A stretch of DNA of 33,440 bases. It comes from Candidatus Hydrogenedentota bacterium. Its GTDB lineage: Bacteria > Hydrogenedentota > Hydrogenedentia > Hydrogenedentales > JAGMZX01. Below the pieces are notes generated by a model. It ran no database searches, was not told where the DNA came from, and worked only from the letters and a program-made list of their open reading frames with translations. Where the stretch lies: contig JAKQEQ010000129.1 of assembly GCA_029556545.1 (NCBI GenBank), positions 1 through 33,440 of the forward strand, in the 5' to 3' direction. Of this stretch, positions 3,343-28,810 are shown one piece after another. Within the stretch, counting starts at the first letter, position 1. The number at the start of each line of letters is the position of its first letter. The translations under genes and the position numbers were made by a program.

Positions 3343-5994
3343 CTAATTGTAGATGAATTGAGCCGTAGCCGTGCAGTCTCTATCCACCGTGATGCGCACC
3401 CACTGCCCGGAAAAGGCGTCGGGAAATTCGTGGTGGACATAGGGTTTCTTGCGGGTGAGCTTGAAGGAGGCGTAGGGCATCCAGTGGCCGTCGCCGAGGA
3501 TATCGACCTCCACCTCGAACCGCACCGGTCCCTTCGCTTCGCACGCAAGGTGAAGCACCTTCCGATGATACCCCGTCATAAGAAACGGGTCCGATATCTC
3601 CCCGGCCTTCACGGAAGTATCCCACCACGGCCCGCCCCACCCCGTGGGCTTGCCCAGCCGCCAGAGGTCGTCGATATTGCCGAACCACAGACCGGACTGT
3701 GGCTGGCCCGCGTCATGGTCGATCTGATCGGACGCCATCACGAAAAGGCCGCGCCAATGGCAAAAGTCGGGAACAACACGCAGATGCGTGCAAATGGGAC
3801 GTATGCCCCAGACGCGCCCGCCGTAAGCAAAGGGCGGCAGTTCGAAGAAGGCGCCATGCGCATCCATCAACAGCCGCTCGGTCACGGCGTGCCGAATGCG
3901 CATCCATTCCGTGTTCCAGGCATGGTCCCATGTATGGCTGGCCTTCGGCAGCAAGTAGCGCTGCCACTCGCCGTTCACAAGCGCGCGCAAGACGACGGAG
4001 GACTTGGTCCAGCCGATCGCATAGAGCGTGTTCCCGCCATAGGTGGCGTTGCCCTCGCTGCCGCTGACTTCGACAAACGGGTTTTCCTCGACGATCTTCC
4101 ACGTCGCGCCGTCCCACTCGGCAAGCCGTCCCGCGCTACGTTCGCCAAGGAACTCCTTCTCGTCATAGGTATTGTTGGCCACCACCACGCGGCCTTGGCC
4201 GGTATAAGCGCTCTTGAAGTGCTCCTTTGCGTCGATAATGCGCAGTTCCTCCCGCAGATCGAAGAGTTGCACGGCATCGAGTGTGCGCGCGTCCACTTCC
4301 CAGAACCCGCCTTCCATGCCGAGAAAGTAGACCTTGTGCTTGGGATCCGTGAGATGGGCGCACGTGGCGGCGAGGCGCTTATCCTTGAGCCCCTCAATGA
4401 TACGCACCTGCCCGTCCGCGTCGATGGCGTAGGGGCCGATGAAGGCTTGGCCGCTCGGCCAGTGGGGCATGCGGTTGGCATACGTCCCGGTGATGGAGGC
4501 CGGGTGCCGCCGCATGGTCATGTCCTCGCGGATTTCGTAGAGGCCGAGCCCCTGACCCCGAATGTGGGCGACGTAGCCCACCGCCCAGAGCCGATCGCCC
4601 CAGGGAATCAGCGCACCGATCCCTGCCTCCGAATCGCTGCCGAGGCCCCTCGCCATTACCGTCATGGCCGGAAATACGCCGGCCACCTGAAGGGGCGGCG
4701 CACTTGGCGGCGCTGGATCGTCCGCGCTTTCCAGATACCGCCGGACCGCCTTCGCGAGCGACAGCCCGAACGCCCGAGCGCTGTCGGGCGTGACGGCCCT
4801 GCCGCCCGCGTTCGCGTAAGGAATCTCGAAACTCGCGGCGAGCCGCAACCCTTCGATACCCTCCGCCCACCGGCCGAAGCTACGGCCCGCCGCGTAGTTC
4901 CTCGGCTGGTTCCAACTCTTGCCATGGGGCAGATTGTGCGCGGCCAGATAGGGCAAGGCGCCTGACCTGTTCGACTTCTCCAGCAAGACGCCAAGAGCCT
5001 GCTGCTGCTCCCACATGACCTCGCTCCGGCTGCCCACGATGTAGATATCTTCGTTGTGTATGCCGCGCAGGTAGGGGCAATGAAGATCAAGGGCGATCAG
5101 CAGTTTGCCGTTCGACCAGTTGCGCGCCAAGGTCCGCAATGCCGCCGTTTCCGGATGAATGCTCGGGCCGATGTAGTCGCGGTTATGATCGTAAGGACGG
5201 CGGTTTTTCCCCTGGTCGCCGTCCTCGACACCGTCCTTGTCCATGAACGGAACGGCCATCATTTCGACGTTGCGCAGAAACCAGTAGCCGTCGTCGTTGT
5301 CCGCCAGCACCGCCTCCAGCATGCCTTCCAGCACATAACTCGCCATCGCCTCGCAAGCGTGGTGCCGCGCCGTAACAAGCACGCGAAACCGCGGATCGCC
5401 GTCCAGCCGGCCTGCGCGAACCAGCGCGACGTCGCGTCCCTTGGCGCTCTTGCACAACGATTCGACGATAAGGTTCGGCGAGTTCCGGTGTCTGGCCAGG
5501 AAATTGCGGAAATCCGATTCCTGATACGGGATAGTGAATGCAAACCGAACCTCGCGCGCATCAAGCGGGAATGCATAGGTGAATTGACCGGAGCCCACCG
5601 TCTTCGTACCCATCCACGACCACGACACGCCGCCGTCCGTGCTGACCGCCGGTCCGCGAACACCTATGGGATCGCGATCGATAAAACGAAACGTAATAGT
5701 GCGCCCGGCCGCCCCCCTGACACGGAAGTTCCAATAGAACCACCAGCCTTCCGTGTCGCGCAGATCGGGCTTGAGGTAGACCGTATCGCCGTCGATGCGG
5801 TCCACAACAACGTTGCCGCCGGGGTACTCGGCATCGATGGAGATTGTGATCCCCGAAGAAACGGCCCACGCAACGTCCGCCCCTGGCCCAATAGGAGTCA
5901 CGCCGAATACGAGGAGAATTGCATTCAGGGCAAGGCCAAAGGCAATTCGTCTCACCCGCCGAAGCATGATCGGACCCAAGGCGTCACTGTGCAT
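3343..5994 (-). CDS. secreted M14 zinc carboxypeptidase with long C-terminal domain
   Basis: This is an 883-residue protein. Residues 10-45 form a signal peptide (basic start, then ALNAILLVFG). About 48-155 is a beta-rich N-terminal domain of the kind preceding M14 domains in cytosolic-carboxypeptidase-like enzymes. The M14 domain covers about 160-425: zinc ligands H212-x-x-E215 and H305 (DLHC), substrate-binding N271-R272, and catalytic E390 in SFEIPYAN. It should remove C-terminal residues from peptides outside the cytoplasm. Residues 430-883 form a second beta-rich, tryptophan-rich region, possibly a propeller, that I cannot name; it is longer than the peptidase. The start at 5994 has GGAAGGGG about seven bases upstream and a consensus promoter 30 bases away. 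An upstream-extended frame would read through that promoter. The 200 bases downstream, before the kinase gene, hold no gene. Confidence 0.88.
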   Translation of the reverse strand: MHSDALGPIMLRRVRRIAFGLALNAILLVFGVTPIGPGADVAWAVSSGITISIDAEYPGGNVVVDRIDGDTVYLKPDLRDTEGWWFYWNFRVRGAAGRTITFRFIDRDPIGVRGPAVSTDGGVSWSWMGTKTVGSGQFTYAFPLDAREVRFAFTIPYQESDFRNFLARHRNSPNLIVESLCKSAKGRDVALVRAGRLDGDPRFRVLVTARHHACEAMASYVLEGMLEAVLADNDDGYWFLRNVEMMAVPFMDKDGVEDGDQGKNRRPYDHNRDYIGPSIHPETAALRTLARNWSNGKLLIALDLHCPYLRGIHNEDIYIVGSRSEVMWEQQQALGVLLEKSNRSGALPYLAAHNLPHGKSWNQPRNYAAGRSFGRWAEGIEGLRLAASFEIPYANAGGRAVTPDSARAFGLSLAKAVRRYLESADDPAPPSAPPLQVAGVFPAMTVMARGLGSDSEAGIGALIPWGDRLWAVGYVAHIRGQGLGLYEIREDMTMRRHPASITGTYANRMPHWPSGQAFIGPYAIDADGQVRIIEGLKDKRLAATCAHLTDPKHKVYFLGMEGGFWEVDARTLDAVQLFDLREELRIIDAKEHFKSAYTGQGRVVVANNTYDEKEFLGERSAGRLAEWDGATWKIVEENPFVEVSGSEGNATYGGNTLYAIGWTKSSVVLRALVNGEWQRYLLPKASHTWDHAWNTEWMRIRHAVTERLLMDAHGAFFELPPFAYGGRVWGIRPICTHLRVVPDFCHWRGLFVMASDQIDHDAGQPQSGLWFGNIDDLWRLGKPTGWGGPWWDTSVKAGEISDPFLMTGYHRKVLHLACEAKGPVRFEVEVDILGDGHWMPYASFKLTRKKPYVHHEFPDAFSGQWVRITVDRDCTATAQFIYN

Positions 5995-6024
5995 GTCACC
6001 CCTTCCCTTGACACGTTCGGCGGC

Positions 6025-6053
6025 ATTATAGACATGCCCACAGGATCGGTCAA
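6025..6053 (-). promoter_or_regulatory. sigma-70 promoter of the M14 peptidase gene
   Basis: On the minus strand TTGACC (plus 6048-6053) and a perfect TATAAT (plus 6025-6030) are 17 bases apart. The -10 box ends 30 bases before the ATG at 5994, leaving a short leader that carries the ribosome site. This fixes the start of the peptidase gene. Confidence 0.8.
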
Positions 6054-6248
6054 AGAGCGGATTCGACTCAGGGTGCCTGAGGGTTACTCTGCTATTGCCG
6101 CTGTAATCGACGCATCCCCACTTGAGGCTCCACTTTCGTCCGGGGTCTGTGGCCGTGTGCAATTTCCCCGTCGCGACCAACGAATCATAGACGAGTCTGA
6201 AGACTGCCAGGCAGATCCCGGGGCGTTCGGCGAAGGAGGCCCACGACG

Positions 6249-6278
6249 TTCGATCTTTAGGCAGATGTGATGTATACT
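6249..6278 (+). promoter_or_regulatory. possible promoter of the polysaccharide operon
   Basis: TATACT (6273-6278) is a good -10 box; the best -35 at 18 bases is TTCGAT (6249-6254), only three of six matches. An overlapping TTGACG (6278-6283) has a poor -10 partner. The 360-base divergent gap 5995-6353 otherwise holds only the minus-strand promoter. Confidence 0.3.
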
Positions 6279-6353
6279 TGACGTGTGATGCGCCAATTGC
6301 GTATTCGGGGAAATGTCTGAAAAGGCGGTCCGCAGAGCGGAGGAGAGCATCTG

Positions 6354-7871
6354 ATGAGCGCGTTGCCTCAAATGGCGGCCCCGACACTGGGGTTCTGGAA
6401 GGGCCTCGGATATCTGCTGTTGTCGGTGGTGTTCGGCGTTGCGGTCATCGCGCTCGGCAAGATGGCGCTGGTCGGTCTTGTGGGCGCGGTCTTCTTTCTC
6501 CTGTTCGTCTATTTCCCGGTGCTGGGCCTGTACGCGACCACGGCGCTGCTGCTGCTTTCCGGCTCGCGCGGGATTGTCGGCGTGATCGAGGGCGGCGCGC
6601 TGGCGGTGACGCTGGCACGGTTGTGCGGCACGGCGGCACTTGCGGCGTGGCTGGTGAACATCCTTATTCGAAAGATCCGTTTCGAGTTCAACTGGCCCGT
6701 AATTCTATTGACGGCATACTGCGCGTGGGCGCTCCTGTGCACCCTGGTGTCGCCCGAACGCCCCGAGGTGCTGCCGGAGTGGATTCGCCTTGTCACGCTG
6801 CTCGGCTTCTTCCTGCTGGCGGTCAATACGCTCAATTCAACGCGGAATCTGCACTATTTCATCGTGCTCATTCTGCTGTGCGGGCTCATCATGTCCTTAG
6901 CGGCCGTCGCACAGTATTTCATCCCGCAGTTGCAGGTTGCAGGCGCGGAACCGTGGCGGGCCGTAACCACCGACACGGCCTATATCGATCAAGAATCGCT
7001 CCAGGGCGAATCGGCGATTCGCGTCTCGGGCCGCGCGGGGCACTCGAACTGGCTCGCCATGGTCATCCTGCTTATTCTGCCGCTGAACAGCTACTGGTAC
7101 ACGGTGGCGAAGAGCAACAAAATGAAGGCGCTCATCCTCTTCACGGTGGGCATCGAGGTTGTTACGTTGGCGCTGACCTACACGCGCACCGGCCTTATTA
7201 TCGGTGCTGTGCTCGGCTTACTGTTGCTCTACAAGCGCCTCGTGCGCATGAATGCCCTCCGATTGTTCGGCGCGCTGGGCCTCGTCGTGATCGGCTGGGT
7301 GCTTCTGCCCAGCGCGTACAAGGAGCGCGTGTTCAGCCCCAAACAATACACGGGCAGCGCCTCGGTGCAGAGTCGCCTCGACATGCAGGGGGCGGCGTTG
7401 CGCTACTTCGGCCAGAATCCCGTCTTCGGGTACGGGTCCGGTGGCTTCGGCACGCAATTCGTCCACGAGCGCAACCAGAGCGCCGCATTAATGCGGATGT
7501 ATGTCAAACTCGCGGGCTGGCAGCCGGTGTTTATCGGCACGCACAACATGTACCTGCAACTCCTTGCCGACACGGGCTTCGTGGGGTTCTGTCTCTTCAT
7601 GGTCTTTCTCATCCTTATGTTGCGCAAGCTATATCTGATCGAGAAGCAATATCAGGCCGTCGGTGACACGCAGGGGGCCGCCCTGGCCTCCGCCCTGTTC
7701 GTAAGCCTGGTCGGGTTCGTCTTCTGCGCAGTCTTCCTCCACGCGCTCACGCAGAAAATCTGGTGGATGGTCGCGGCGGCGGCGGTGGTCCTGCCCCTCT
7801 ACAACCTGAGCTTCAAGCAGGGGCTCCTGCCCAAATGGGGGTGGACCACGGAGGCGCCAACCGCGCAGTAA
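6354..7871 (+). CDS. O-antigen ligase / Wzy family membrane protein
   Basis: A 505-residue polytopic membrane protein with about a dozen hydrophobic helices. The Wzy_C domain signature is visible in the long periplasmic loop and the helix after it: GRAGHSNWLA from residue 226, then RLDMQGAALRYF, the glycine-rich GYGSGGFG near 360, and HNMYLQLLADTG from residue 397. Members join finished O-antigen or exopolysaccharide chains to a lipid carrier, a protein or each other at the outer face of the inner membrane; the acceptor is not readable from sequence. AGGAG lies about nine bases before the ATG. It opens a plus-strand run of very closely spaced genes (next start seven bases after the stop) with a glycosidase, a glycosyltransferase and an SGNH hydrolase, which supports an exported-polysaccharide role. 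Confidence 0.85.
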   Translation: MSALPQMAAPTLGFWKGLGYLLLSVVFGVAVIALGKMALVGLVGAVFFLLFVYFPVLGLYATTALLLLSGSRGIVGVIEGGALAVTLARLCGTAALAAWLVNILIRKIRFEFNWPVILLTAYCAWALLCTLVSPERPEVLPEWIRLVTLLGFFLLAVNTLNSTRNLHYFIVLILLCGLIMSLAAVAQYFIPQLQVAGAEPWRAVTTDTAYIDQESLQGESAIRVSGRAGHSNWLAMVILLILPLNSYWYTVAKSNKMKALILFTVGIEVVTLALTYTRTGLIIGAVLGLLLLYKRLVRMNALRLFGALGLVVIGWVLLPSAYKERVFSPKQYTGSASVQSRLDMQGAALRYFGQNPVFGYGSGGFGTQFVHERNQSAALMRMYVKLAGWQPVFIGTHNMYLQLLADTGFVGFCLFMVFLILMLRKLYLIEKQYQAVGDTQGAALASALFVSLVGFVFCAVFLHALTQKIWWMVAAAAVVLPLYNLSFKQGLLPKWGWTTEAPTAQ

Positions 7872-7877
7872 AGGAGC

Positions 7878-10040
7878 ATGGCCGGCGTGGCGCAGTGCGT
7901 CTTGCATCTTTGCCTGATGTCTTTGTTGTGCGGCGGGGCGCACACTCTGTCCGGCGCCATACGGGACACGCACGATGCCGCCGTAGCTAACGCGTTTGTT
8001 GCGGTGCTTGACGCGTCGTGGCAAAGCGTGGGACATGCGCGAACCGACGCGCAGGGAGCGTTTTCACTGGAATCGTCCGTTGCCGGCGCGTACCTCGTCG
8101 TGCAGCCGCCGACGCGCGAGACTGCGGACGGGTTGCAGATCTGCGCCAACGAACCGCGCATCTATCAGGTATCAGAGACAACAGCAAGTCTCGATCTGCG
8201 CCTGCCTCCGGCCGGGGCGCTCGTTTTCGAGGCCTATGACGCCGAAGGTCGCCTCATGCGCTGGGCCGATTTCGAGCGCAACGGCAGGCACGCCGGGCAG
8301 TTCATGTACGCGATAAACCTCGAGGACGAGGCCGTGCCCGCCGCGTGCTGGCCCGTGCACGGCGCGCTGACGGGCGCGGCCTCCGGCCCGCGCGATCAGG
8401 GGCTTCCCGCGTTGTACGTGCGACCGGACGACACGGTCGCAATCCAGGTCCTGTTCTGGCCGACCCGCGACTACGGCAAGCTCATGCTCCGCGCGGACAA
8501 CGAAGGCGCGGCATATCGGCTTGCGGCCCCCGGCCAAGCGCGATTGCTCCTACTGAACCTCGAACTGGCGCGCACCGCCGTCGCCGACCTCGAACGGCGC
8601 GCGGACCGATACGCGCCCGACGCGGCCGCCGCGATTGCCGCGTTGCGGGTTCGCCTCGATGACGCGTCGCGGGAGGCCGATCGCCGCCAAGCCGCCACGC
8701 ACGCGGATGCGACGCTCGCCGAGGCGCTGCGGCTGCGCGACCGCCTTGAACTTGAGGCGGCGCGGGCCGCAATACCCACCGCCCGCATGGGCGATCTGCT
8801 CGTCAAGATCATCAACACCGAAGGTCAGCCTGTCGCGGGCTGCGAGGTCTCGCTCCGACAGGACCGATCGGCATTCCTGTTCGGCGTTTACGAGGGCAGC
8901 CCATATAACGCGGAGGCGTTCGAACTGGCGCGCGCAGCGGGCTTCGACTACGCCACAGTCCTGCCCGCGTGGAACTGGACTTCGAATCCAAAAATGAAGA
9001 AGGGCGCCATTGACAAGACGTTCGGCATTTCCGCCTTGCGAAAGCTCGGATACCGCGTCAAAGCCCACGGCGTCCTATGGATGCAGGAGTACGGCATCCT
9101 CCCCGACCGTGCGCGCGCGATGCCGCATGCGGAACTGGTCGAAGCGGCGTTGTCGCATCAGCGCGCCCTCATCGAGACCTTCCCCGAGTCCATCGCCATC
9201 TGGGAGGCAATGAACGAACCGGCCAACACCAACGTGGTCGGCCTGCCCCGGGACACCATGATTCAACTGCTCACGTCCGCGGCAGCCAACATCGCCGTCA
9301 CGAGAAAGCCCGCCCTCGTCAACAGCCCCCATGAGTTCAGCTACGGCGCAATGTATTTTCAGTACGGACTGGATAATCGGCCCGTCGACGACTATCCCAT
9401 GACATATTCGGCGTTCCTGAAACTCGCGCGCGACGCGAGCGCGCTCGATGACATCGACATCATCGGGTTGCAGTTCTATCCCGGCTTCCACCTCAACCCG
9501 GACTTTGGGAGCCAGCAGGGACCGGCCTTCACGCCTGCCCATCTGCTCGATACTGTCGAGCGGTATACCCACTTCGGGAAAACGGTCCACATTACCGAGT
9601 TGTCGTTGCCGTCCGATTACGGTTCCGACTGGACCGCGGGCTACTGGCGCGAGCCCTGGACCGAGGCGGCCCAGGCCGATTACGTCGAGGCTGTATTTAC
9701 CCTAGCATTCGCTCATCCGCAGGTGCGATCGGTCACGTGGTGGGACATCACCGACCTGAAGCCCGCGGTGCTTTCCGGCGGGCTGGTCCGCGCGGACGGC
9801 GCGCCGAAGGCGGCCTTCGAGCGGCTGCGCCGCCTGCTCGAAACGTGGCGCACCAACGCTACGGGCGAAACCGACGCGCAAGGCATCGCCGCGTTTCGCG
9901 CGTTCGGCGGGGCTTATACCATCAGCGTGGTCACGCCTGGTGGCCAGATCGGGAAAGCTACCGCAACAATCGAGCGTGAGTTCGAGATTCTCGAACGTTG
10001 GAAGAACACGCTGGAGATCCAACTCGAGGACGCGCCATGA
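7878..10040 (+). CDS. secreted GH10 family glycosidase
   Basis: A 720-residue protein with a signal peptide over residues 1-26. Residues 25-110 look like a carboxypeptidase-regulatory beta-sandwich. About 225-300 is Ala/Arg/Glu-rich and probably helical or coiled. The GH10 (TIM-barrel, endo-xylanase family) domain spans about 305-665: active-site H397 in KAHGVLW, acid/base E447 in WEAMNEP, and nucleophile E574 in HITELSLPS. A short beta domain ends the protein. GH10 enzymes cut beta-1,4-linked xylan or glucan-like backbones with retention. In this operon it may trim or edit the cell's own polysaccharide rather than feed on plant xylan; that is inference. AGGAG sits only one base before the ATG at 7878, so the in-frame GTG at 7887 (ten bases away) may be the true start. 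The stop overlaps the next ATG. Confidence 0.85.
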   Translation: MAGVAQCVLHLCLMSLLCGGAHTLSGAIRDTHDAAVANAFVAVLDASWQSVGHARTDAQGAFSLESSVAGAYLVVQPPTRETADGLQICANEPRIYQVSETTASLDLRLPPAGALVFEAYDAEGRLMRWADFERNGRHAGQFMYAINLEDEAVPAACWPVHGALTGAASGPRDQGLPALYVRPDDTVAIQVLFWPTRDYGKLMLRADNEGAAYRLAAPGQARLLLLNLELARTAVADLERRADRYAPDAAAAIAALRVRLDDASREADRRQAATHADATLAEALRLRDRLELEAARAAIPTARMGDLLVKIINTEGQPVAGCEVSLRQDRSAFLFGVYEGSPYNAEAFELARAAGFDYATVLPAWNWTSNPKMKKGAIDKTFGISALRKLGYRVKAHGVLWMQEYGILPDRARAMPHAELVEAALSHQRALIETFPESIAIWEAMNEPANTNVVGLPRDTMIQLLTSAAANIAVTRKPALVNSPHEFSYGAMYFQYGLDNRPVDDYPMTYSAFLKLARDASALDDIDIIGLQFYPGFHLNPDFGSQQGPAFTPAHLLDTVERYTHFGKTVHITELSLPSDYGSDWTAGYWREPWTEAAQADYVEAVFTLAFAHPQVRSVTWWDITDLKPAVLSGGLVRADGAPKAAFERLRRLLETWRTNATGETDAQGIAAFRAFGGAYTISVVTPGGQIGKATATIEREFEILERWKNTLEIQLEDAP

Positions 10041-11227
10041 AGCCCGTCAACGTGCTCTATCTCGTCCGCACTTGGGCGCTCGGCGGGTCCCACACCATCA
10101 TCCGTCTGCTATTGCGCCATCTTCCGCGCGACCGGTTCAACGTCATTACCGTGCCTTACGACGCGCCCGGCCGCGGCGACGCCGATTTCATCGCGTCGGT
10201 CCGCAAGCAGGGCGACGATGTGGCCCCGGATCGCATTCCCTGGCGCAGCCGCGCGAACTGGTTTCGCGCGCGCCGCGCGGTCGCGGAACTGATTTGCCGC
10301 TACGACATCAGCCTCATTCATACGCACGACACAAACTCGAACGTACTGATCGGCCTTGGGCGTGACCGCTGGCCCTGCGCCTGCGTGGCGAGCCCCTACG
10401 GCTGGTGGGAACCCGAGCCGCGCCGCCGCATCCGCGCTTATCACTGGATCGAGAAGAACCTCGCGCTGCCCCGCTTCGACCGCCTCATCACAGTATCCCA
10501 CACCATGAAGCGCAAGATTCTCGCGGGCCGCGCCGCTGCGGACCGCGTCAAGGTTATTCACACCGGCCTCGATCCCTCGCAGTTCGCCGGCGGCCAAACG
10601 CGGGAAGCCGTCCGCGAGGAACTCGGCATTGCGCCGGAAGACCTTGTTATCGGCACGGTGAGCCGCCTCTTCCGCGAGAAGGGCCATACCTTCCTGCTCC
10701 AGGCCGCGGCGAGTATCGTCGCCGATTGCCCGCGACTGCGACTGCTTATCGTCGGGACGGGCGACCAGCGCGAACCGCTCGAACAGGAGGCGCGCGCGCT
10801 AGGCATCCGAGACCGTGTCACCTTTACCGGTTACTACGAGGACTTGCCGGCCGCGCTGCGTGCGATGGACCTCTTCGCGCAGCCCAGTATCCAGGACGAG
10901 GGTTTCCCGACCGCCATCCTCGAGGCGCAACTGATGGGCTTGCCCGTGATCGCGTCTAATATCGGCGGGACCTTCGAAACCATGGATGTCGACCGGACCG
11001 GCATGCTCGTTCCTCCGCGCGACGCGGACGCCCTCGCAATCGCCATGCGACTGCTCCTCCAGGACGCGCCCCGCCGCCGCGAGATGGCCGCCGCCGCCCG
11101 ACCTTGGGTCGAACACTCCTTCACACTGATAGACATGATTGATCGTGTCGTCGCGACGTATGACGAAGCCATCGCGCACTTCGCGGCGACCCGCGGCGGC
11201 CACGGGTCATTGAGGGGCGCGGAGTAG
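10037..11227 (+). CDS. glycosyltransferase family 4
   Basis: A 396-residue GT-B fold retaining glycosyltransferase. The N-terminal domain opens with NVLYLVRTWALGGSH (the GG loop). The C-terminal GT1-type domain starts near residue 200 with IGTVSRLFREKGH and holds the nucleotide-sugar motif E288-x7-E296 in EGFPTAILE, followed by GLPVIASNIGG. It should transfer a sugar from a nucleotide donor to the growing repeat unit on the cytoplasmic face of the membrane. The start is the ATG overlapping the GH10 stop (ATGA), with GAGGA about eight bases upstream; an upstream-extended frame overlaps the GH10 gene without reason. The stop TAG shares one base with the GTG of the next gene, so translational coupling along the operon is likely. 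Donor and linkage cannot be read from sequence. Confidence 0.88.
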   Translation: MKPVNVLYLVRTWALGGSHTIIRLLLRHLPRDRFNVITVPYDAPGRGDADFIASVRKQGDDVAPDRIPWRSRANWFRARRAVAELICRYDISLIHTHDTNSNVLIGLGRDRWPCACVASPYGWWEPEPRRRIRAYHWIEKNLALPRFDRLITVSHTMKRKILAGRAAADRVKVIHTGLDPSQFAGGQTREAVREELGIAPEDLVIGTVSRLFREKGHTFLLQAAASIVADCPRLRLLIVGTGDQREPLEQEARALGIRDRVTFTGYYEDLPAALRAMDLFAQPSIQDEGFPTAILEAQLMGLPVIASNIGGTFETMDVDRTGMLVPPRDADALAIAMRLLLQDAPRRREMAAAARPWVEHSFTLIDMIDRVVATYDEAIAHFAATRGGHGSLRGAE

Positions 11228-12813
11228 TGGGCACGTCGCCGCGCAGCCCGGTCATCTTCGCCACGCTCCACACTTGCGCAATCGTACTCAGCACCGCGGC
11301 GCTCGCGCCCCTGTTGCATCAAGCGGACAACACCCTGCTCAATCACCGCGAGTGGAGCGTGACCAAGACCAAGGTCGCCATGGATCTCATGGGCGCGAAA
11401 TCATACCTGACCGGCCCCCAGGCGCTCGCCGGCAGTCAGCTCAACTTGGGCGCTTGGCACGGCTATCAGGAGGTCGCGCTCCGCATGAAGGTCCGCCCCG
11501 AGACGGTCCGTTTCCGCGTTTGGCTAGAGGAAAATGCCTATCTCTACGTCATCTACGACCGGGACCACGTTGTTGGTTGGGAAGATGCCACGTGGCAGGC
11601 GGTTCGGCTGTCCACGTGGCCCTTGCTGCCATCGGCCCAAGTGCGCGCCAAAGCAGGCGGCGAGTTCTTAGAACACCGTCCGCTCGAAGGCATAGTCTTG
11701 CGCGAAAAGGCCTGGAACGACGTCGAACTGCGCTTCGGGGCCGATACCGCCGTGTTGATCTTGAACAAAGGCCCCGCCATTCCGGTCGGCGCGCCCATCC
11801 TTGATGCCTTTCACGTCGCGTTTCGCGGCGGGTCCCGGCCCGCAAGCGTGGACACGATAGCCATCGCCGGCGCGGGGAACGAGCGGGTATTCCGGGCGGA
11901 TTTCAGCAACACCGAGGGCCTTGTCCGGACGGCGCTCGTGATTGCATCGCTGCTCCTGGGCGCAACCCTCGCTTTCCTCGGTTTGTACCGCGCCGCAACC
12001 GGCGGATGGCGGCCGGGCGCGGCCGCCGCCGCAAGCGTGCTCGTCACCCTTGCGGTTTGCTCGTGGATACTCTACGTCTTCTTCACGTGTTTTCAGGCGC
12101 ACACGTATCCCGTTTTCGACGAAGACGCCCGCCGACTCGAAGACTTTCTGGTGCGGCGTTTCGCCGATGACGTGGTCGAGCAGATCAAGTCTCAGTTCAC
12201 CCCGGAGAATCCCAAACACCGCCGCCGCATTCTCATACTCGGCACCTCCCAGACCTGGGGCAGCGGCGCCATGAAGCGGGAGGACGCCTTTGTCGCCCAA
12301 GTCGAGCGCCGTCTCAACGAATCTCCCGACGACGATGCCCGCTTCGAATGCATTCCCGCAGCCATTCCCGGCGTCAATGCCCCCTTGCTGCTCGACTTCT
12401 ACCGCAATTTCTGGATCGATTTCGGCCATGAACTCGTGGTCATCAATCTCGGCATGAACGACCGTGACCCCGACGCCTTCGCGGAAGCGCTACGCGGGTT
12501 CGTGCAACTGAACCAGCAACGCGGCATACCCACGCTCTTTGCGCTGGAACCCGCCTCCATCGAGGATTGCCCCGACGGACTCGAGCCAAGTCATTCCGTC
12601 ATGCGTCGCGTGGCCCAAGAGACGGGCACGCCCATCGTGGACCTCTTTGCCGCCATGAAAGCCCGTTACGCGGACGGCATTCTCTGGTGGGACGTAGTTC
12701 ATCCCACGAACTTCGGCCACGAGTGTATCGCCGACGTCCTGGCTCCCGTCATCCGCGACCTCCTCGCGGGCGCGCCACATCCGCCCTCGCCTGGCGGTTC
12801 CGCGCAATCTTGA
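11227..12813 (+). CDS. membrane SGNH/GDSL hydrolase family protein
   Basis: A 528-residue protein. An N-terminal hydrophobic segment (about 9-30) is followed by a beta-rich extracytoplasmic region (about 40-225), two membrane helices (about 233-255 and 266-289), and an SGNH hydrolase domain from about 334. Block I is GTSQTWGSG with the likely nucleophile S341; block III is NLGMND with N411; block V is D489-VV-H492. Such domains remove or transfer acyl groups, and membrane-bound SGNH proteins in polysaccharide clusters often set O-acetylation. By sequence the catalytic set is complete. The GTG start overlaps the upstream stop (TAGTG). The last gene of the polysaccharide set, it is followed after about 70 bases by tilS. 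Confidence 0.78.
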   Translation: MGTSPRSPVIFATLHTCAIVLSTAALAPLLHQADNTLLNHREWSVTKTKVAMDLMGAKSYLTGPQALAGSQLNLGAWHGYQEVALRMKVRPETVRFRVWLEENAYLYVIYDRDHVVGWEDATWQAVRLSTWPLLPSAQVRAKAGGEFLEHRPLEGIVLREKAWNDVELRFGADTAVLILNKGPAIPVGAPILDAFHVAFRGGSRPASVDTIAIAGAGNERVFRADFSNTEGLVRTALVIASLLLGATLAFLGLYRAATGGWRPGAAAAASVLVTLAVCSWILYVFFTCFQAHTYPVFDEDARRLEDFLVRRFADDVVEQIKSQFTPENPKHRRRILILGTSQTWGSGAMKREDAFVAQVERRLNESPDDDARFECIPAAIPGVNAPLLLDFYRNFWIDFGHELVVINLGMNDRDPDAFAEALRGFVQLNQQRGIPTLFALEPASIEDCPDGLEPSHSVMRRVAQETGTPIVDLFAAMKARYADGILWWDVVHPTNFGHECIADVLAPVIRDLLAGAPHPPSPGGSAQS

Positions 12814-16355: not shown

Positions 16356-18359
16356 ATGGCGAAACTGAAGTGTCCGAAATGTTTTCACGTGAACGCGGAG
16401 GGGCGCGAGGTCTGCGAGAACTGCATGACGCCGCTGCCGCGCATCCGCATCGAGGCCCGCCTCGAGCCCACGCCGCCGCCGCAAGCGCCGGAAATCCAAT
16501 TCCGGCGCGGCCAAGTGGTGGCGCAACGGTATACCGTGCTGCGCCTGATTGGCCGAGGCGGCATGGGCTGCATCTACAAGGTGCATGACAACACCCTGGG
16601 CGAGGAAGTGGCGCTCAAGACGCTGCTGCCGCAACTGGCCCGCGACCAGCTCGTCGTCGAGCGCTTCTTCAACGAGGCGCGCATCGCGCGGCGCCTCGCC
16701 CATCCGAACATCGTGCGCGTCCATGACATCGGCACCGCGGGCAACATAATCTACATCTCGATGGAATTCGTCGAGGGCGTCTCGCTGCGTCAATCCCTCG
16801 AACGGAAGCGCGTGGACGCCACGCTGCCGCTGGGGCAGGTGCTCACCGTCGTCGATGAATTATGCGCCGCCCTCGAATACGCGCATCAGTACACGGTCCA
16901 CCGCGATATCAAGCCGGAAAACGTGATGCTCAGCTCGGACGGGCGCGTCAAGCTCATGGACTTCGGCATCTCGAAACTCATGGCGGACACGCGCCTCACC
17001 GGCGCCTCCGTCGTCATGGGCACGCCCTTTTACATGGCGCCCGAACAACTACGCAACAGCCGCGACGTGGACGCCCGGGCCGACGTCTACAGTGTCGGCG
17101 TCATGTTGTACGAACTGCTTACCGGCAACGTGCCCACCGGCGTGCCGAAACCCGTTTCCGAACTGCTCAAGAAAGTCCCGACGGAACTGGACGCGATCAT
17201 CGCCCGCTGCGTCGAGCCCGACCCGAAAAACCGTTTCCAGAGCGCCACCGAGCTGCGGCGGGCGTTGGCCCCCATTCGCGAGGCGGTGCTTGCGGGCGAG
17301 ACGACAAAGACCAGGCGACGGACCACGCGTATCAAGGTCGGACCAGGGCGTTTTCGGCGGCCCTTGGGCGCCGCTTTCGCGGCGCTGCTACTGACGGCGA
17401 CGCTGTTTGGCGTCTATCGCGCCGAAGCGCGGATGCGCGCGCTGGGCGGCGCGCGACCTGAAGCGCCTGCGGCGGCCGAAGGCGTGGCGGACCGTTTCGA
17501 CAGCGTGACGGCGCTCGTCCTCCGCGCCCAGGACGCCGCAGACAGGCGCTCCCAGCGGGTCGAGGGCCAGTTGCGCACAGCCTTCGACGCGGGCGACGAT
17601 ATCTGGGCGGACGCGCAACGCGCACACGAAGCGGGCGACCCCGAGGCAGCGCGGCTCGCGCAGTATGCGCTGCAATGTTACCTCGCCACGCTGATGTGGC
17701 CCGAGGGCATGGTCTTCGTACCGCCCGGCGCAACCGACGCAAACGGGAAGCGGGTCTCTGTGCCGCCTTTCTTCATCGACGAGACGGAGGTGACCGCCGG
17801 GAAGTTCCGCCAATTCTGCGAACGCACCCCCGGCGGCTGGCCCTGTCACCTGCCCCCCGAGTACCCGGCAGACCGGCCGGTCGTAATGGTCGCGTACTAT
17901 GACGCCCTCGCCTACGCGGCCACGCAGGGCAAGCTGTTGCCCACTGAGGCCCAGTGGGCGCGCGCGGCCTACGGCGCCGATCCGGTCGATTATCCTTGGG
18001 GCAGTGCATGGGAGGACGGCGCGGCGAAGACCCTCGGCATCGGCGATCCGGGCGCGCCGGCCACGGTGAAGTCGTACGGCAAGGACCTTACCCGAATGGG
18101 TTGCTGGGACATGGCGGGCAACGTTACCGAATGGACCCGAACGGTCTCTGGCGCGGGAGGCGAGGACACCGGGGACGCGGCGCCTGATTTCAAGGCGACT
18201 ATCGCCGTGCGGGGCGGCAATTTCTCCGCTGGACCCGCCAGCCTGACGCGCTCGTTCGCCGCCGAATTCGAGAAACGCGACATGACCCTCGGATTCCGCT
18301 GCGTGCTCGAGATTCCCACACGGCGCGACATCGTCGAGAACGTCCTGAGCAAGGCATGA
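16356..18359 (+). CDS. membrane Ser/Thr protein kinase fused to FGE-sulfatase domain
   Basis: A 667-residue fusion. Residues 6-23 are a zinc ribbon (C6-x2-C9, C20-x2-C23). A Pkn2/Hanks-type kinase spans about 58-310: glycine loop GRGGMGCIY, Lys88 in [12 protein letters not shown] (Asp184), MDFG (Asp202) and GTPFYMAPE, all intact. A membrane helix follows at about 337-353. The C-terminal half, about 450-660, is a formylglycine-generating-enzyme/SUMF1-type domain ([47 protein letters not shown]) that should lie outside the cytoplasm. In kinase fusions this C-type-lectin-like fold is usually taken as a sensor or binding module; the catalytic cysteine pair of true FGEs is not evident. GAGG stands seven bases before the ATG. 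Targets are unknown. Confidence 0.88.
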
Positions 18360-26014: not shown

Positions 26015-27416
26015 CTATGCGTTGATCACCGTCTCGCAGACGTAATCCAGAACGGCCATGATTTCCTGTTCTTGCTCGGCGGTCAATCGGCTGGGCACGT
26101 TGATGCCGACGGAGGTGATTAAAGCCTCGTCGAGGCGGGGCAAGGTTCCCCGGTCGTAGCGATACGCCGCGTGGAATGCGTTGCGCGAGCAGTCCCACGG
26201 GCAGCCGTTGTTCATGGGCCGTTTCTCGATAAGCGGGTGGATGTTGTAGTAAACGTGGACCTCGAAATCGTGGAGGAACCACGGGTGCAGACCCCACGCG
26301 GCGAGCGCGGCGGCCACGGCGCGGCCCCGCGCGATCTTCGCGGCGGCGGCGGCGGGTCCCGGCGGCAGGTGAAAGATGCAGTAATAGCCGGTGTCGCCGG
26401 GTGCGCTCGCATCGGCGCGGGCGCGCGGCGTGAGGCCCAATTCGCGTGCGTGGACCTCGAAGCGCGCATGGCTCCGGCGCATGTTGTCGAGTATCGCATC
26501 CAGTTTGCGGAGTTGCGCGCGGGCCACAGCGCCTTGCAGTTCCGTCATGCGCCGTCCATGGCCCCACCCCAACGGCGCGTCGCCGTACCAGTTCTGCGCC
26601 GGGTCGGCGTCCTTGGCGTAGCCGACGTTGTGCAGCGCCTCGATGCGGCGATGGAGTTCCGGGTCGCGGGTGACGATCATCCCCCCTTCCCCCGCCGTCA
26701 TGTCCTTGTTGATTTGCAGGCTGAAGATGCCCGCGTCGCCGAAGGTCCCCACGCGATGGATGTCCTCGTCGCCCAGCGGCGCAATCGATCCGGGAATACC
26801 CCGCGCGTGCGCGCCCAGCGCTTGGGCGCAGTCTTCGAGGACCCGCACGGGCGGCAGCCCCTGCGTCCGGCGCTCGGCGTTGATCTCGCGCACCACGGCC
26901 ATGATGCGTCCGATGCGGGCGCAGCCCCCCAGCATCGGCACGGGCATGATCACCTTCGTGCGCGGGGTCACCGCCGCGCGGATCGCCTCGGGGTCCATGT
27001 TCAGCGTGTCGTCGGAGTCGACGAGCACCGGCACAGCGCGGGCGCGAATGATGGACGAAATGCTCGCGATCCACATGAACCCCTGGACGATCACTTCGTC
27101 GCCGCAGCCGACGCCGAGCGCATCGAGCGCGACCTCGAGCGCGCCGGTGCCCGAGTTGACGGCGGTCACGAGAATATCGCCGGCCTCGGGCCACGGCGCG
27201 CCCGGTTTCGCGGCAAGGTAGCGGGCGAATTCCCGCTCGAACTGCCTTACCTCGAAGCCGCAGTCTGGGCCGTAATAGCGGAACGGCGATCGCCGCTTCA
27301 TTACGCGCATGGCCGCCTCGATTTCTTCCTCGCCGTACCAGACCGCGCCCGGAAACTCGGCGGGAAGCGCGAACTTCGCGGGCTTCTTGTCCGACACCCT
27401 CTTGTCAACCGGCATA
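26015..27416 (-). CDS. DegT/DnrJ/EryC1/StrS family PLP aminotransferase
   Basis: About 466 residues, a fold-type I PLP enzyme of the sugar-aminotransferase family. The PLP lysine is K237 in FSLQINKDMTAGEGG, with D195 in LEDCAQALGA contacting the cofactor ring, and the phosphate-binding VNSGTGALEVAL near 87. Members transfer an amino group from glutamate to a keto-sugar bound to a nucleotide, or act as 3,5-AHBA-type dehydratases/aminotransferases. An insertion around 355-420 and a cysteine-containing NNGCPWDC segment suggest a less common subfamily. The ATG at 27416 is chosen for AGGGAG eight bases upstream; an in-frame ATG at 27457 lacks one. It follows the GT2-TPR gene by 56 bases, so a joint role in making and attaching an amino sugar is likely but inferred. 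Confidence 0.85.
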
Positions 27417-27472
27417 CTACGAACTCCCTGTGCTTTGCAGTCCCCGAGTCGCGCCATGTCCCCGTCGAGCGT

Positions 27473-28810
27473 CTACCGGTCCACGTCGCGCGCAAGCCGC
27501 GCGAGGTTGGCCTCGGCGGCGGCCAAGCCTGGCGCCAGTCGCAGCGCGCGCTCGAAGCTCTCGCGCGCCTTGGCGACTTGTCCCAGCGCGTGCAGAACAA
27601 CGCCCAAGTCATTGTGCATGAACGGGTCTTCGGGATCGAGCCGCAATCCCTCGACCAACGCCGCCAGCGCCTCGCGGAAAAAGCCATTCTGGAACAGGTC
27701 CTCCGCCTCGACGCGGAGCGTGTGCGCGCGCACAAGGTTCTGGAACTCGACCAGCTTCGGGGCCAGGTCCCGGGCCATTTCGAGTTCGCGCAGAGCGTGT
27801 GCGGGATGCCCCTGCCGGTCAAAAACCCGCGCGAGGCCCACGTGCGCCATCAGCGCTTTCGGGTCCGCCTCAAGCGCCGCATCGAGCCGCCGTCGCGCGT
27901 CCTCGACGCGACCCTCACGGCAGTCGATTGCGGCAAGCGCGGTGAGCATGTGCGGCGGGGCGGTGTCCCGAGCCGCAACCACTTCAAGTACGGCCCGCGC
28001 CTCGCCGAATTCGCCCCGGTTCAGCAGGATATTCGCCAGCGTCGTCGCGGAATCCGCGTCGCGCGCGTCGAGGGCCAGCGCCTTGCGGCAAGCCGTTTCC
28101 GCTTCAGCCACCAGGTTGCACGCGAGGGCCTGCTCGGCGAAATCGTGTAGCGCCTTCACGTTCTCGGGCTGGGCTTCCATCTTTCGGCGCGCGATGGCGA
28201 GGTAGCGCGCGGCCTTGTCGCCCCGGCGCGCGCGATCCGGGTCGTACCCGTAGTGATGGATGAGGATGTCTTCCTGGAGCACCTTGCCGCCCCGCTCGAC
28301 GACGCTCTCCGTGATGTTCTCGTGCACCGGCTCCCGGTACGCGAACCCCATCCGATTGCGGAACAATCGCAACAGGCCGACCCGCAGGTACCCCGAAAAG
28401 CCGCGAGCGCACTCGCACCCCGCATCGACGGGCGTCCACCGCCACGCCCGCGGATCGTCGCAGTAATTGGCCAAGACGAGTTCGACCGCGTCCGCGCCGT
28501 AGCCGTCGTGGTCCACGATGTCCCGAATGCGCCGCGCGCCGTCCGGGTCCAGCAGTTCATCCGCATCGAGATGGAGCAGCCAGTCCCCGGTCGCCGCGGC
28601 GATGGTTTCGTTGCGCGCCGCCGCGAAATCGTCCAGCCACGCGATCGGGAAGACCCGTGCGCCTAGAGCCTCGGCCAGCGCCGCCGTATTGTCCGTCGAA
28701 CCGGTATCGCCGACGACGATCTCGTCGGCGATGGACCGCACGCTCGCGAGACACGCCTCGATGCGCGCCGCTTCGTCCTTCACGATCATAATGACGCTGA
28801 GCGTGGGCAT
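27473..28810 (-). CDS. glycosyltransferase family 2 with TPR repeats
   Basis: A 445-residue fusion. Residues 1-215 are a GT2 domain opening LSVIMIVKDEAARIEACL, with GDTGSTDNT at about 34-42 for the nucleotide and the metal-binding DAD at 82-84 in LHLDADELL, then FRNRMGFAYREPVHENI. Residues about 225-440 are helical tetratricopeptide repeats (for example ACRKALALDARDADSATTLA, ARRRLDAALEADPKALMAHV, ARESFERALRLAPGLAAAEA). TPR-linked GT2 enzymes usually glycosylate proteins, the repeats holding the acceptor. Position between flgM and an aminotransferase gene raises the idea of flagellin or surface-protein glycosylation, which is inference only. No ribosome site is clear before the ATG at 28810, 24 bases after flgM. 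Confidence 0.85.
   Translation of the reverse strand: MPTLSVIMIVKDEAARIEACLASVRSIADEIVVGDTGSTDNTAALAEALGARVFPIAWLDDFAAARNETIAAATGDWLLHLDADELLDPDGARRIRDIVDHDGYGADAVELVLANYCDDPRAWRWTPVDAGCECARGFSGYLRVGLLRLFRNRMGFAYREPVHENITESVVERGGKVLQEDILIHHYGYDPDRARRGDKAARYLAIARRKMEAQPENVKALHDFAEQALACNLVAEAETACRKALALDARDADSATTLANILLNRGEFGEARAVLEVVAARDTAPPHMLTALAAIDCREGRVEDARRRLDAALEADPKALMAHVGLARVFDRQGHPAHALRELEMARDLAPKLVEFQNLVRAHTLRVEAEDLFQNGFFREALAALVEGLRLDPEDPFMHNDLGVVLHALGQVAKARESFERALRLAPGLAAAEANLARLARDVDR

Follow-up and report, generated by a model that had tools for sequence, protein, structure and literature searches.

A GH10-like glycosidase paired with Wzy in exopolysaccharide cassettes of Candidatus Hydrogenedentota

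A four-gene run and its surroundings

The window, that is, the whole stretch of 33,440 nucleotides that was analysed, corresponds to contig C57 in the 6.1 Mb draft genome of a Candidatus Hydrogenedentota bacterium. It carries four consecutive genes for a Wzy_C-family membrane protein, a GH10-like glycosidase (GH10L), a GT4 glycosyltransferase (GT4a) and an SGNH/GDSL hydrolase (Table 1), followed on the 3′ side by a TilS-type gene. The original prediction had described four genes with overlapping or near-touching ends, and this was confirmed; all four lie on the same strand, with gaps of +6, -4 and -1 nt between Wzy and GH10L, GH10L and GT4a, and GT4a and SGNH, respectively. The 4-nt overlap of GH10L and GT4a is an ATGA; GT4a starts with the ATG at 10037, and its open frame extends back to a TTG at 9998. 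The start of GH10L is uncertain, as a GGAG (7873-7876) lies just 1 nt before the ATG at 7878 and a GTG at 7887 is possible. By hydropathy, Wzy has 12 membrane segments, SGNH has three and GH10L has one, which lies at the N-terminus.

Table 1. Features of the window discussed in the text.
Feature	Position	Strand	Length	Matches and remarks
M14-type carboxypeptidase	3343-6387	-		divergent from the four-gene run
Wzy_C-family membrane protein	6354-7871	+	505 aa	PF04932, E 1.6e-16
GH10-like glycosidase (GH10L)	7878-10040	+	720 aa	PF00331, 32.6 bits (cut-off 22.1); also PF13620
GT4 glycosyltransferase (GT4a)	10037-11227	+		PF00534, E 3.5e-39
SGNH/GDSL hydrolase	11227-12813	+	528 aa	PF13472, E 6.2e-11
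Ser/Thr protein kinase/FGE-sulfatase fusion	16356-18359	+		N-terminal double zinc ribbon match, weak
DegT-type aminotransferase and GT2 glycosyltransferase/TPR fusion	26015-28810	-		adjoining genes

Further genes of the window were recorded. The longest frame of the divergent carboxypeptidase overlaps the start of Wzy, and its true start is probably located further inside this frame. Downstream of the run, one gene joins a Ser/Thr protein kinase domain to an FGE-sulfatase (formylglycine-enzyme-like) domain, and further on a DegT-type aminotransferase gene adjoins one for a GT2 glycosyltransferase with fused TPR repeats.

Conservation of the Wzy-GH10L pair and its cassette

Our comparison covered 60 genomes from the order of the source genome, which was itself included; genes in relatives were called with a home-made ORF script, which gives rough starts and may miss small genes. 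Full-length GH10L (best E < 1e-100) was found in 15 of these genomes; at E 1e-5 the number of genomes with any match rose to 26, and the matches beyond the 15 were partial or distant GH10s. Wzy orthologs (E < 1e-60) are present in 18 genomes, with G032, which has one weak match, counted as absent. All 15 genomes with GH10L also carry Wzy and three have Wzy alone, no genome has GH10L alone and 42 have neither (Fisher p 1.5e-11). Counted by genus, the same classes, in the order both, GH10L alone, Wzy alone and neither, comprise 12, 0, 2 and 25 (Fisher p 2.3e-8); both p values serve as a guide, the genomes being related. The pairing of Wzy and GH10L is thus far beyond chance. Moreover, the protein distances of GH10L and Wzy are correlated (Mantel r 0.84, n=16, with 0 of 10,000 permutations as high), as is expected of co-inherited genes, and vertical descent alone would suffice for this.

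Across the phylum, GH10L occurs in 17 of 68 genomes at 18 loci. Wzy is located directly upstream on the same strand at 12 of the 18, at distances of -29 to +17 nt (starts being rough), and a member of the GT4a family directly downstream at 11. At the remaining loci, one gene separates Wzy from GH10L (G004), a contig ends upstream of GH10L (G008 and G018), or GH10L does not adjoin Wzy and has other genes upstream (G029 and both copies in G060); in G030 a contig edge lies downstream of GH10L. The search for neighbour families covered the loci other than those of G008, G018, G029 and G060, where a xylan-use context is possible. The intervening gene in G004 encodes a calcineurin-like phosphoesterase (L047:10519-11442). 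In G060, one of the two GH10L copies (L060, L064) is followed by GT4a and GT4b and the other is without cassette neighbours; L060 and L064 were assigned to G060, and L058 to G062, by their contig numbers and coordinates. Three of the 18 Wzy genomes (G033, G044 and G050) carry Wzy without a GH10L ortholog, in G044 in the order Wzy-GT4a-GT4b, and in G008 Wzy and GT4a lie together with GH10L on a separate contig. GH10L is therefore dispensable to the cassette. A scan of 84,980 species with two narrow peptide patterns, which may miss distant relatives, returned 14 loci, 13 of them in Hydrogenedentota/Hydrogenedentes and one assigned to an "uncultured bacterium".

The neighbourhoods in relatives also revealed the wider setting of the pair. 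An initiating sugar transferase (PF02397, INIT) and a flippase (PF01943, Wzx) are encoded in front of Wzy, and GT4b and further glycosyltransferases come after. At locus L041, the order is PF02397, PF01943, Wzy, GH10L, GT4a, GT4b and a DUF1972 glycosyltransferase, followed by a methyltransferase, an epimerase, a nucleotidyl transferase and then a polysaccharide export protein. This arrangement is repeated at L042 and L058 and, minus at least one part, at L035, L039, L040, L043, L044, L045 and L047. In the genome of the window, the cassette is split: homologs of INIT, Wzx and GT4b lie together on contig C170 (L091:4470-12330) and Wzy-GH10L-GT4a on C57, with contig breaks hiding the true distance. 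Gene content and order mark the locus type as a Wzx/Wzy exopolysaccharide cassette with the order INIT - Wzx - Wzy - GH10L - GT4a - GT4b. Since INIT and Wzx precede the Wzy_C protein in relatives, this protein most likely serves the cassette as its Wzy polymerase, a reading that fits better than the "O-antigen ligase" label it had been given. An assignment as XrtA O-ligase was also rejected, as TIGR03097 scored 87.6 bits against an NCBIfam cut-off of 188.1. In contrast to this label, the view of a polysaccharide-assembly unit in which a GH10-type enzyme is flanked by a Wzy-type protein and a GT4 is borne out by the order Wzy-GH10L-GT4a in relatives.

The SGNH gene does not share in this conservation. 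The protein carries the SGNH motifs GTS (339), GMND (409) and DVVH (489), and homologs (E 1e-5) were detected in 12 of the 60 genomes, the source genome included. However, none lies at the GH10L loci of the relatives examined, and the locus in the window is alone in having one. In the sister species of the same genus (G001), a minus-strand gene follows GT4a, and an SGNH homolog of 25% identity is found on another contig. An acetylation pair of the AlgJ/AlgI type would combine an SGNH protein with an MBOAT; no MBOAT lies near the SGNH gene, and the only one found in the genome is on contig C63. We therefore rejected SGNH as a cassette member, and the proposed acylation of the glycan by this protein is unsupported. 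By the same token, it is improbable that all four genes make up a unit in which a single glycan is polymerised, trimmed and acylated, as had been put forward originally: the touching ends in the window speak for it, but the other GH10L loci examined, also within the same genus, have no SGNH homolog.

Fold and active site of GH10L

By profile and predicted fold, GH10L is a (beta/alpha)8 barrel closest to GH10. PF00331 matches 14 of the 15 cassette proteins at E <= 0.001, and in the AlphaFold model (pLDDT 91.2, pTM 0.90) the GH10 barrel (~331-658) is flanked by Ig-like strands (304-331 and 660-715) and preceded by a signal-like N-terminus, a CnaB/CarboxypepD-like beta domain (~21-225) and a helical linker (226-303). 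Ranks 1-16 of the Foldseek search are GH10-type xylanases, headed by AcXyn10A (E 2.0e-23), and rank 17 is PslG (E 1.2e-11). VIA-align placed 7d89 first (Z 28.3, 338 aligned, rmsd 2.8); PslG is absent among its best 50 matches, which excludes nothing. AcXyn10A of Acetivibrio clariflavus (8b73) reached Z 28.2 in VIA-align with 361 residues aligned at rmsd 3.1, and XynA (7d88) Z 28.1 with 350 at rmsd 2.8. They share both the barrel and the flanking strands with GH10L at 22% and 20% identity, respectively, and the N-terminal beta domain is unaligned in both. The matches of this domain to CnaB/CarboxypepD-like folds are weak and partial (best E 1.7e-6, rmsd 33.5), and Pfam CarboxypepD_reg is found in 12 of 15 cassette GH10L proteins. 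The GH10L proteins of L046 and L047, which belong to one genus, are without the strands before the barrel and also without those after it, a joint loss that fits two halves of one Ig-like domain. From the hydrophobic segment at residues 1-19 (by hydropathy; start codon uncertain), we infer that GH10L may be exported.

We compared the active site among the 15 GH10L proteins and 13 other GH10s of the phylum (21 matched frames minus seven duplicates and one short frame, L025). Residues of the xylanase TmxB, for which Glu67, Asn68, Lys71 and Gln111 have been described as conserved subsite -2 residues of GH10 xylanases (PMC6163442), were mapped onto GH10L by motif spacing. Invariant in all 15 proteins are N446/E447, the Asn-Glu pair of the acid/base, the nucleophile E574, and H397, W401 and Q532. 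The subsite -1 residues that could be placed are kept, except for the His of the GxQxH motif (His230 in TmxB), which is replaced by Tyr534 in 15/15 GH10L and is His in 13/13 of the other GH10s. By motif position, the Glu, Asn, Lys and Gln of subsite -2 are also replaced in all 15, so that GH10L lacks these four residues as well as the GxQxH His of canonical GH10 xylanases. The Glu-Asn-Lys set is likewise missing in the nearest five of the 13 other GH10s and, according to the printed alignment, in AcXyn10A; its loss alone therefore does not exclude xylan as a substrate.

The segment HGVLWM (residues 397-402) had attracted attention because the second His of the usual motif is Met. This change is real, but it is not a distinctive mark. 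Next to the Trp, six of the 15 GH10L proteins have Met and nine have Leu, and eight of the 13 other GH10s also have a residue other than His there (His in 5/13); in 8b73, unlike in GH10L, the Trp of the H-x-x-x-W motif is still followed by His. We thus rejected the Met as a diagnostic change in favour of the His to Tyr replacement in GxQxH. Other clan GH-A families have a Tyr that contacts the nucleophile, and a QxY motif would therefore be compatible with activity. A tree rooted at the midpoint separates the 15 cassette proteins as a single group from the 13 others (support 100/100). The stem of this group measures 2.48 changes per column, and its status as a clade depends on the root.

A possible role in polymer trimming

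We favour, as the probable reading, that GH10L, comparable to PslG, is an exported or periplasmic endo-glycosidase by which the polymer of the neighbouring Wzy is trimmed or cleared. GT4a and GT4b would contribute to the cytoplasmic assembly of a lipid-linked repeat unit, which Wzx would flip and Wzy would then polymerise. Beyond the inner membrane, GH10L could cut this same glycan, and such cutting might set chain length or clear stalled polymer, as has been proposed for PslG and Psl; by analogy, we infer that the cognate polymer would be the one cut. This model is supported by the conservation of GH10L in an exopolysaccharide biosynthesis locus, directly after Wzy at most of its loci. Against it stand the dispensability of GH10L, the silent deletion of prmN described below and the copies in G029 and G060 that lie away from Wzy.

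Precedents for such an enzyme exist. A GH10 gene within a Wzx/Wzy cluster is already known from Sphingomonas sp. LM7, where prmN is part of the promonan cluster, and the Hydrogenedentota cassette is a variant of this organisation. Deletion of prmN left colony morphology and EPS production unaffected, unlike the GH16 gene prmQ of the same cluster, which did matter (PMC11340318). As in the case of GH10L, prmN is accompanied by glycosyltransferase genes; however, it lies three GT2 genes past wzy rather than adjoining it; the comparison made here is one of gene content and position. PslG of Pseudomonas aeruginosa (PDB 5bx9) is also an EPS-operon glycosidase with a barrel fold, but belongs to another family, GH39, and matches GH10L less well than the GH10 structures do. 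Its proposed role is to work on Psl while the polymer is being made, or to remove Psl from the periplasm (PMC9075953). AlgL and PelA are further degradative enzymes within EPS operons (PMC9075953), of which the first is a lyase and the second a different hydrolase, each acting on another polymer. The beta-1,4-endoglucanase EngXCA2 of Xylella fastidiosa lowers the size of the cell's own EPS by cleavage (PMC10653819), which offers a functional comparison rather than one of sequence or fold. PssW of Rhizobium was dropped as a GH10 precedent, since the text found for it mentions neither a hydrolase nor GH10. Our literature searches returned no paper on the Wzy-GH10L cassette of Hydrogenedentota.

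Three other roles for GH10L have to be weighed against trimming. That it is an ordinary secreted, nutritional xylanase or beta-glycanase which lies in the EPS locus by chance would agree with its fold and nearest solved structures, which are those of GH10 xylanases, and the genome of the window has two further GH10 genes (on contig C190). We nevertheless consider this unlikely, given the co-occurrence with Wzy over 12 genera, the direct linkage, the separate, long-stemmed clade and the Tyr at the His230 position; the replaced subsite -2 residues point in the same direction, although the nearest five non-cassette GH10s are also without Glu-Asn-Lys. Lacking the GxQxH His and the -2 residues, GH10L could alternatively have given up hydrolysis and serve as a carbohydrate-binding lectin or a scaffold for Wzy. 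This role hardly accounts for the invariance of both catalytic Glu residues, of the Asn that precedes the acid/base, of the Gln, and of the His and Trp of subsite -1, and we give it little credence. Finally, GH10L could be a transglycosylase or a chain-release or attachment factor, which would take completed polymer off the lipid carrier and pass it to an acceptor instead of hydrolysing it. Retaining GH-A enzymes can transglycosylate, which counts for such a role, as do the coupling of the gene to Wzy and an N-terminal CnaB-like domain (by weak matches) of a kind found in surface proteins; genomes with Wzy but without GH10L speak against it, and we regard it as highly improbable.

Beyond the trimming reading itself, we tentatively suggest, with less than even confidence, that GH10L might found a GH10 subfamily for glycan assembly, coupled to Wzy, with a remodelled site (QxY and a new -2 subsite), and either cutting or transferring and releasing a non-xylan polymer. 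If so, a family regarded as degradative would, in one phylum, have been recruited into a polymerase module. Why polysaccharide synthesis loci encode enzymes that cut their product has been described as unresolved (PMC9075953). A xylanase-type enzyme that accompanies one Wzy in 12 genera of this uncultured phylum, together with natural cassettes without GH10L, provides a clean comparative system for this question. Furthermore, automated annotation would label assembly-linked GH10s as xylanases, and the conserved His to Tyr replacement could serve as a sequence mark to tell them from degradative ones.

A second GH10 type, with QxH kept, was observed in G015 and G021, which belong to the same genus (L050:2925-11531 and L048:8778-17018). 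It is divergent from an adjoining run of XrtA-like export, chain-length, ATPase and tyrosine-kinase genes, in which XrtA models match below cut-off, and it sits elsewhere in the other genomes examined.
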